Shown: positions 16,360-17,162 of the stretch, piece by piece
Position numbering within the stretch: the stretch's first letter is position 1
Layout: every line of letters begins with the position of its first letter
NCBI RefSeq assembly: GCF_003171515.1
Contig: NC_089397.1
Coordinates: 620,001-684,000 of the forward strand
Source of the DNA: Pyrenophora tritici-repentis
Lineage: Eukaryota; Ascomycota; Dothideomycetes; Pleosporales; Pleosporaceae
Reading direction: 5' to 3'
Length of the DNA: 64,000 bases
Notes under the pieces: generated by a model
Database searches by the model: none
The model's input: the letters and a program-made list of their open reading frames with translations, nothing else
Told to the model about the DNA's origin: nothing
Position numbers and translations under genes: made by a program

Positions 16360-16999
16360 ATGTGTCGGTCAGGATAGGGAGGGGGACTGAGAAATGAAAA
16401 AAAAGTGAAAATAGGTGGAAGGGATGGGCAATGCTATGGGTTTGGAAGGATATAGATTTGGATTGGAACGATGGTGGGTGGGTGGAGGTTGGTTAACGAC
16501 GTTATGATTCTGGTCTTATTGTTACAGTCCTGGGGCACTTGGTTTGGACTGGAACCTAGTTTTTCTTATCTGGTTATGTTTTGAGGACAGCACGAGCGTA
16601 TACCATGGAGCGTTTATTGTTTTTTATCTTTTCGATTAAGCAGAATTCTTCACAGCCGAGTAACGTTACTACTCGCTTCTTGGTAGAGGACTTTGGTCTT
16701 ACATATGTCTAATTGCAATATATTAGTGCTTATTATATCTTGCCATACATGCGTTAGTTCTATGCGTGTCTTCTTTCTGTAAAGTAACGATAACCAAAGA
16801 GTAGATGCAGTTTACATGCATGTGTGCCGGTAGTGCCAGTAGTGCAGAAACTGTAAAAAGAAACCCTGCGATAGCCGTAGCTACCATGCATCCTGTTGCT
16901 AACAGATACTTAGCTCCTTAATTAACCTAAGAAGATAAAAATGCTAAACTTCTATAAGAAGTTTATAAATAAAAAAGAGCAAAAAAAGAGAACAAGGTC
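16360..16999. other. Intergenic spacer downstream of PhoD-like gene
   Basis: This 640-bp stretch becomes AT-rich towards the right. Its last part, read on the minus strand, is the T-rich downstream flank of the tRNA gene (T7 and T6 runs just below 16990), suitable as a Pol III terminator. No protein-coding feature is seen. Confidence 0.5.
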
Positions 17000-17162
17000 T
17001 AGTCCTGGTGGGGCTGGAAAGAATGTTAGTAAAGGAGATCGAACAAAGCATCGATGTGGGAGAATCTTACTTCGAACCCACGGCATCCGCATAACCTGGA
17101 TGAGGTCATAAGAGTCTGACGAATCTTATAAGAACGGCGCGCTACCACTGCGCCACAGGACT
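17000..17162 (-). tRNA. tRNA-Ile(UAU) with two insertions
   Basis: Exonic pieces are 17127-17162, 17071-17092 and 17000-17013 on the minus strand. Joined they give a 72-nt cloverleaf. The acceptor stem AGTCCTG pairs perfectly with CAGGACT, with discriminator A. The D arm is GCGC-AGTGGTA-GCGC. The anticodon loop CTTATAA has anticodon TAT at 17128-17130. The T arm is GTGGG-TTCGAAC-CCCAC. The first insertion (17093-17126, 34 nt) follows position 37, where eukaryotic pre-tRNA introns sit, and contains CTTAT, which can pair with the anticodon region. The second (17014-17070, 57 nt) interrupts the T loop. A T7 run lies about a dozen bases downstream. The only flaw is a T31-T39 mismatch in the anticodon stem. 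The B box is broken by the second insertion, so function is uncertain. Confidence 0.75.
17014..17070 (-). other. Spliceosomal-type insertion inside the tRNA T loop
   Basis: Read on the minus strand, this 57-nt segment starts GTAAG, contains the branch-point match TTTACTAAC about 16 nt before its end, then a pyrimidine tract, and finishes TTTCCAG. These are the full signals and the usual length of introns in the protein-coding genes of this window. It sits between TTCGAA (positions 54-59) and C60 of the tRNA. Precise removal restores a seven-base T loop and a five-pair T stem. Confidence 0.7.

Follow-up and report, generated by a model that had tools for sequence, protein, structure and literature searches.

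The tRNA-Ile(UAU) gene described here raises the question of whether a nuclear tRNA gene can carry a spliceosomal intron in addition to an ordinary tRNA intron. In the textbook view, eukaryotic tRNA introns are removed by the tRNA endonuclease and GT-AG introns by the spliceosome. The gene is located on the minus strand at positions 17000-17162 (163 nt, with a mature tRNA of 72 nt) of our window, the whole 64,000-nt stretch of Pyrenophora tritici-repentis DNA that was analysed. A sequence-only reading of this window had placed a spliceosomal-type intron in the T loop of the gene, beside an anticodon-loop intron of the ordinary kind, and its coordinates and sequences for the gene, the 57-nt insert and the 34-nt intron are correct. 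According to our analysis, which is based on sequence comparison and structure prediction, the 57-nt GT-AG insert is very likely (rough probability 0.87) a U2-type spliceosomal intron, and the tRNA-Ile(UAU) gene that holds it a working one, possibly without a second copy. It would belong to a set of at least five introns of this kind in the fungus, the other four being in tRNA-Ser genes. The gene is built as follows.

17127..17162 (-): exon 1, nucleotides 1-36, with the acceptor 5' strand, D arm, anticodon stem 5' strand and anticodon (ARAGORN)
17093..17126 (-): ordinary tRNA intron, 34 nt, directly 3' of the anticodon region (ARAGORN intron position 36-37)
17071..17092 (-): exon 2, with the anticodon stem 3' strand, variable loop, T stem 5' strand and TTCGAA of the T loop
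17014..17070 (-): 57-nt intron of spliceosomal type (GTAAG...TTTCCAG), at 59/60 of the T loop; C8:637014-637070
17025..17029 (-): CTAAC, the match to the branch site, contained in TTTACTAAC and separated from the intron 3' end by 11 nt
17000..17013 (-): exon 3, with the last T-loop base, T stem 3' strand, acceptor 3' strand and discriminator A
17145..17155 (-): intact A-box match TGGCGCAGTGG, found by reading against the consensus
17071..17078 (-): GGTTCGAA, the first eight B-box bases; the 57-nt intron displaces the remainder
16981..16987 (-): T7 followed by GC, Pol III-terminator-like; T7GC starts at +13, and a similar run lies 3' of most other nuclear tRNA matches examined

On the minus strand the gene thus reads AGTCCTGTGGCGCAGTGGTAGCGCGCCGTTCTTATA, the 34-nt segment, ATGCGGATGCCGTGGGTTCGAA, the 57-nt segment and CCCCACCAGGACTA. 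In the intact segment ARAGORN made no tRNA call, whether or not introns were allowed, and it made none after removal of the 34-nt intron alone. When the 57 nt were taken out, it called tRNA-Ile(tat) with a 34-nt intron, and when both segments were taken out, an intronless 72-nt tRNA-Ile(tat). The comparison with and without 17014-17070 that had been proposed as a check thus yields the tRNA only upon removal, and together with the GT-AG signals these calls bear out the arrangement of two introns of different type in one gene. In the intact window, the gene was missed by the Rfam gathering search as well as by ARAGORN. A covariance model derived from 11 tRNAs, the mature Ile sequence included, scored the intact locus at 22.7 bits with the anticodon stem and the T arm broken.

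Compared with a functional tRNA gene, the Ile gene possesses a cloverleaf (after excision), an anticodon and a T7GC terminator, along with one stem mismatch: in the ARAGORN structure, the anticodon stem contains a U31-U39 mismatch and a U30-G40 wobble, and the remaining stems are paired. In the best RNAfold structure of the mature 72-nt RNA the acceptor stem is formed and the anticodon stem is not, the centroid contains the acceptor, D and T arms, and the folding energy was equalled or bettered by 18 of 200 shuffles. When the whole precursor is folded by prediction, the 34-nt segment pairs with the anticodon loop, an arrangement that suits an ordinary tRNA intron. Two further features of the 57-nt intron may be due to chance: GTTCGATCTCC at window positions 17034-17044 is B-box-like apart from one additional base, and a CCCAC inside the intron is able to pair with GUGGG of the T stem in the fold of the unspliced RNA.

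The borders of the 57-nt insert are set by its splice signals. The tRNA fold alone accepts six of the seven tested phases of 57-nt removal (offsets -3 to +2, ARAGORN), and GT...AG borders occur at offset 0 only. The insert begins with GTAAG, carries TTTACTAAC with CTAAC 11 nt from its end, and closes with TTTCCAG. Messenger RNA introns of the same genome were sought in 161,663 nt of nuclear sequence (33 sequences) as GTRNG...CTRAY...YAG joining two open frames and closed in both. The strict scan (exons of at least 60 and at least 35 codons) returned 14 introns as opposed to 0 in reversed/complemented controls, and with shorter exons 25 versus 5 and 29 versus 12; a looser scan was dropped, as its 114 clusters were no better than the 105 of the control. 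Among the 14 introns, lengths range from 45 to 75 nt and the distances between branch motif and AG from 8 to 20 nt, and the Ile insert lies within both ranges (57 and 11 nt, respectively).

GTAAG combined with CTAAC 3-20 nt from a YAG end was encountered in 2 of 639,128 sampled 57-mers (161,663 nt in four orientations) and in none from the reversed and complemented halves. The two are the Ile insert itself and a stretch of L064, which is one of the 29 candidates for mRNA introns. A looser test with GTRNG, CTRAY and YAG was passed by 15 of the 639,128. We rejected a chance origin of the signals in the Ile insert, as the only strict matches are the insert and a likely mRNA intron. The predicted ensemble of the Ile precursor leaves GUAAG 90-97% and the branch region 86-97% unpaired. 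An Rfam search of the window gave zero matches over the cut-off, and a length of 53-57 nt is too short for the known catalytic core of group I or II introns.

The Ile gene is accompanied in this genome by four tRNA-Ser genes (UGA, AGA twice and GCU) with GT...CTAAC...AG introns of 53-57 nt after nucleotide 13, in the D arm. The intron lengths are 56 nt in Ser(UGA), 57 (L110) and 54 nt (L111) in the two Ser(AGA) genes and 53 nt in Ser(GCU). The Ser(UGA) gene emerged from an excise-and-call scan whose purpose was to obtain the chance rate of a tRNA after excision. In 84 sequences (273,114 nt), 290 intron-like candidates were removed, upon which ARAGORN made four tRNA calls; two of these spanned the junction, namely those of the window gene and of Ser(UGA) at L040. 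The scan required CTRAY and YAG, and was therefore blind to introns ending in AAG. A genome query with the excised Ser(UGA) sequence matched four places (L032/L108, a single uninterrupted Ser(AGA) gene, and L040, L110 and L111), L110 and L111 from nucleotide 10 or 13 onward only. In both, the first and the second exon are again the same, and the 57 or 54 nt that separate them differ in sequence and include GTAAG, CTAAC and a terminal AG. Two of the genes are given here in detail.

C2:2046695-2046831 (-): tRNA-Ser(UGA), L040; GGCGTTGTGGCGG, a 56-nt intron GTACG...GGCTAAC...TTTGCAG, then AGTGGTTATCGCGC and the remainder
G000:C1, 16 nt upstream of Ser(AGA) (-): tRNA-Ser(GCU), L111; a 53-nt intron GTAAG...CCGCTAAC...CTCTAG after nucleotide 13

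At L111 (G000:C1, about 8051452-8051760, minus strand), Ser(GCU) and Ser(AGA) form a tandem with 16 nt between them, each with a D-arm GT-AG intron of its own. A T run lies behind the second gene only, so that one transcript may carry both.

After excision, the Ser(AGA) genes of L110 and L111 each show 0 differences in 81 positions from the uninterrupted L032, and Ser(GCU) of L111 shows 0 in 98 from the uninterrupted L037. Ser(UGA) differs from L032 at 3 of 81 positions, one of them in the anticodon. ARAGORN called all four excised genes; unexcised, three gave no call and L040 a displaced one. The intron of Ser(UGA) was found by its splice signals, the other three by paralogue identity or by reading beside such a match. 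For these three the paralogues define the borders with an uncertainty of one base, since the exon before the intron and the intron itself both end in G, and all three carry GTAAG and CTAAC though the search ignored splice signals. The sequence-only reading had treated the Ile gene as a single case, which was too narrow; its core holds and is strengthened by the four tRNA-Ser genes, three of them with exact uninterrupted paralogues. We posit that these genes, together with their paralogues in one genome, make intron gain and loss directly testable.

All five introns share the design of the mRNA introns. The 5' splice site conforms to GTRNG (GTAAG, except for GTACG in Ser(UGA)), the branch site is CTAAC in every case, 10-16 nt from the end, and the 3' end is CAG or TAG in four, the exception being AAG (not YAG) in Ser(AGA) of L111. 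Their lengths of 53-57 nt compare with 45-75 nt in the 14 mRNA introns, and their exact removal restores the Ile cloverleaf (ARAGORN), three genes identical to uninterrupted paralogues and a fourth Ser gene that is 3 of 81 positions off. GTAAG is found in 4/5 tRNA introns as compared with 3/14 mRNA introns, and CTAAC in 5/5 versus 4/14 (Fisher p 0.011, or 0.051 when only the three tRNA introns found independently of their signals are counted).

Beyond the signals the introns are dissimilar. Among the ten pairwise alignments, each set against 300 shuffles, the score of the closest pair (Ser(UGA) and L110) was reached by 6 shuffles and those of the other nine by 14-242; since the shuffles keep both ends and not CTAAC, the shared CTAAC alone raises the pair scores. 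We infer that the five introns may be old enough to have diverged while selection kept their signals, the alternative being repeated gain at one site. Introner elements, or introner-like elements, are a source of intron gain in Dothideomycetes and are defined by many near-identical copies. The sequence-only reading had thought of a mobile copy of this kind. In the present case, by contrast, a non-exhaustive similarity search of the genome revealed no second copy of the 57-nt insert, and the five introns have little in common apart from the splice signals, which led us to reject a copied introner origin.

Four other explanations were weighed. One is that the tRNA splicing endonuclease cuts the insert out as a non-canonical tRNA intron, in the manner of archaea, red algae and nucleomorphs. 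Position 59/60 would fit, being a known non-canonical site in archaea, and algal and nucleomorph cases exist (PMC4090602 and PMC3978253). Yet no bulge-helix-bulge was found at the borders of the Ile insert, and in none of the five introns does the strict form (4-bp central helix, two 3-nt bulges) attain more than 3 of 4 pairs. The best counts were reached by 701 to 2000 of 2000 shuffles, and a looser arrangement gave 4 pairs in Ser(UGA), two of them G-U. As the motif is no better than in shuffled sequence, and GT, CTAAC and AG in five introns would be left unexplained, we rejected the endonuclease-type identity as very improbable. Still less probable is an error of assembly or a strain-specific oddity: a single assembly was examined, but the same design with clean boundaries recurs in five genes, which occupy four loci, each on a contig of its own (C8, C2, C3 and C1). 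The genes could also be dead, with chance insertions whose signals are accidental or relics of introns copied from mRNA genes. Short insertions in the D or T arm of eukaryotic tRNA genes have mostly been noted in one of many synonymous genes and are supposed pseudogenes (PMC4090602), the Ile(UAU) gene has its stem mismatch, and uninterrupted copies of Ser(AGA) and Ser(GCU) exist, so that the interrupted ones could be dispensable. Against this stand five inserts of 53-57 nt that all carry the 5' site, CTAAC and AG in register, and three Ser genes with exons identical to those of intact copies and intron bodies that differ; neither signals nor terminator need persist in a dead gene. Furthermore, similarity searches of the genome found no intact Ser(UGA) gene and, with the whole gene and the mature sequence as queries, no other Ile(UAU) gene, intact or otherwise, a second intact copy being part of what the sequence-only reading had named as a refutation; these searches were non-exhaustive. 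We consider it unlikely that the genes are dead. tRNA-Ile(UAU) and tRNA-Ser(UGA) may be sole copies, and if so, the reading of AUA and UCA would depend on the spliceosome.

The remaining explanation holds that the introns are spliced in Pol II transcripts running through the tRNA sequences, such as a host non-coding RNA or a read-through mRNA, with the mature tRNA little used. In its favour, spliceosomal introns usually sit in Pol II transcripts, and the internal promoters are interrupted, the B box being incomplete in the intact Ile gene and the A box split by the introns in the Ser genes. Regarding the Ile gene, the claim of a split B box is accurate for the GWTCRANNC core, which is lost in the unspliced gene and present in 22/22 other nuclear tRNA matches among the matches listed, but not for GGTTCGAA, which stays contiguous. 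These 22 come from an RF00005 family search that is plainly incomplete (63 of 1172 first-look candidates were scored and listed); they remain after exclusion of the 22 matches that lie on C41 and of 19 with equal scores that belong to a tRNA-headed repeat, and include L040. TTTGC follows within 45 nt in 19 of the 22, again among the matches listed. T runs lie just 3' of the Ile, Ser(UGA) and both Ser(AGA) genes, and TTTT is absent from the Ile gene and from all five introns (versus 3/14 mRNA introns with TTTT, numbers too small to mean much); the ordinary tRNA match L028 has an internal run of four T. The T runs behind the genes and the lack of TTTT in the Ile gene and the introns speak against Pol II run-through, as does the use of AUA for 64 of 370 Ile codons in eight window ORFs when no other Ile(UAU) gene was found. 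We regard this explanation as unlikely, at about the same low level as dead genes or slightly above it. Since T7GC follows the Ile gene much as TTTGC follows most of the other tRNA matches, and the Ile gene contains no TTTT, transcription by Pol III with a weakened promoter appears likelier for it than transcription by Pol II, an idea of the sequence-only reading that is thereby weakened and doubtful. Introns in fungal U6 genes, as cited in PMC5832005, suggest by analogy that Pol III transcripts can be spliced.

If the 57-nt insert is a spliceosomal intron in a working gene, we infer the following pathway for it. The Ile gene would be transcribed, probably by Pol III, from the A box and the weakened B box to the T7GC terminator. 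The nuclear spliceosome would then recognise GTAAG, CTAAC and CAG and remove the 57 nt, which would rebuild the T arm; end trimming by RNase P and RNase Z would be possible only afterwards, and the tRNA endonuclease would likewise take out the 34-nt anticodon intron only after the 57 nt have gone. Because the genes are broken by introns of the mRNA type, production of the five interrupted tRNAs probably needs the spliceosome. We think it somewhat probable that in tRNA-Ile(UAU) and tRNA-Ser(GCU) two splicing machines act in series, the spliceosome on the D or T arm and then the tRNA endonuclease on the anticodon intron. This class may also be widespread and have been overlooked in filamentous fungi, since tRNA finders drop such genes or the genes are taken for pseudogenes; tRNA annotation restricted to introns at position 37 misses them. 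If true, natural spliceosome-dependent tRNA genes would couple mRNA splicing to the capacity for translation and set the order of steps by which tRNAs mature; they would also test whether Pol III transcripts without a cap or a Pol II tail reach the spliceosome.

A literature search by title or start of abstract, with most subscription papers outside it, found no report of spliceosomal introns that occur naturally in tRNA genes. Kohrer et al. (EMBO J, 1990) reportedly placed a pre-mRNA intron in an engineered yeast tRNA precursor and saw it spliced by the pre-mRNA machinery; that construct was artificial, whereas the present introns would be natural. Non-canonical introns in eukaryotic tRNA genes are supposedly rare, with nucleomorphs and a red alga as exceptions (PMC4090602). 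The five genes described here are an argument that spliceosomal introns account for some of the short insertions seen in the D or T arm. In archaea, Cyanidioschyzon and the Guillardia nucleomorph, tRNA introns are described outside position 37/38, including archaeal ones at 59/60, and sometimes beside a canonical intron (PMC4090602 and PMC3978253). Those of archaea and C. merolae have motifs like the bulge-helix-bulge and depend on the endonuclease according to the same sources, whereas ours have no such motif and full spliceosomal signals; those of Guillardia measure 3-24 nt there, compared with 53-57 nt here.

Further parallels are the U6 and U3 genes of fungi, in which, as in the tRNA genes presented here, an mRNA-type intron interrupts a structured non-coding RNA gene, although the hosts are not tRNAs. 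A reference title in PMC5832005 speaks of U6 intron insertion multiple times in fungi, and the same paper treats U3 introns as normal spliceosomal ones; U6 is a Pol III transcript (PMC10484740). The full-length U6 gene of the present genome is intronless, which counts against our reading of the tRNA introns, as U6 is the usual Pol III host of such introns. Spliceosomal introns are also known from the rRNA genes of ascomycetes (a title cited in PMC2586383), thus from a structured RNA of translation in the same phylum, but these are Pol I transcripts and not tRNA.

Searches for additional tRNA introns by pattern pointed back to the genes already described. In the T loop, GGTTCRADGTRAG had 15 sites (25 for the reversed-pattern control) and GGTTCRADGTRYG 29 (38 for the control). 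Read individually, the GGTTCRADGTRAG sites leave the window gene as the only one that sits in a tRNA, and it alone also remained after excise-and-call at all GGTTCRADGTRAG and GGTTCRADGTRYG loci except L073 (the window's own duplicate) and L076. The D-arm pattern AGAGYGGTTADSGC had 8 sites, four of which are the Ser genes; the other four gave no tRNA call after excision. The single site of AGARTGGTAGMGCG was not a tRNA gene by reading, a tRNA-Leu query matched three places, each over most of its length, and a pattern search of viral contigs gave zero matches.

Several other RNA genes and repeats were observed along the way. At L053-L056 there are several U6-like genes, among them the full 99-nt intronless copy, altered or truncated copies (L054, L056) and, about 280 nt from the full copy on the opposite strand, a 66-nt partial one (L055). 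The U3 snoRNA gene at L077:1420-1540 has GCTAACAGCGCGCAG just before its conserved 5' region, which suggests that U3 may have an intron, as in other fungi. A dispersed repeat with a tRNA-like head (G000, e.g., L039, L041-L051) accounts for at least 19 equal-scoring RF00005 matches. A SINE with tRNA-Ser (GCT) has been described in P. tritici-repentis (PMC3538342), and the repeat may or may not be this element; we did not adopt the identification, as ARAGORN calls tRNA-Arg(tct) in 12 of 12 copies read. Protein comparison places the DNA in Pyrenophora: over its first 400 residues the Kre33 query shows 100% identity to a cluster named from P. teres, and an RTC4-like protein shows 92% identity to P. 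teres and 77% to P. seminiperda. The 183-kb contig G000:C41 holds 22 of the 63 tRNA matches, among the matches listed, some of them apparently duplicated, and is probably a large mitochondrial genome.
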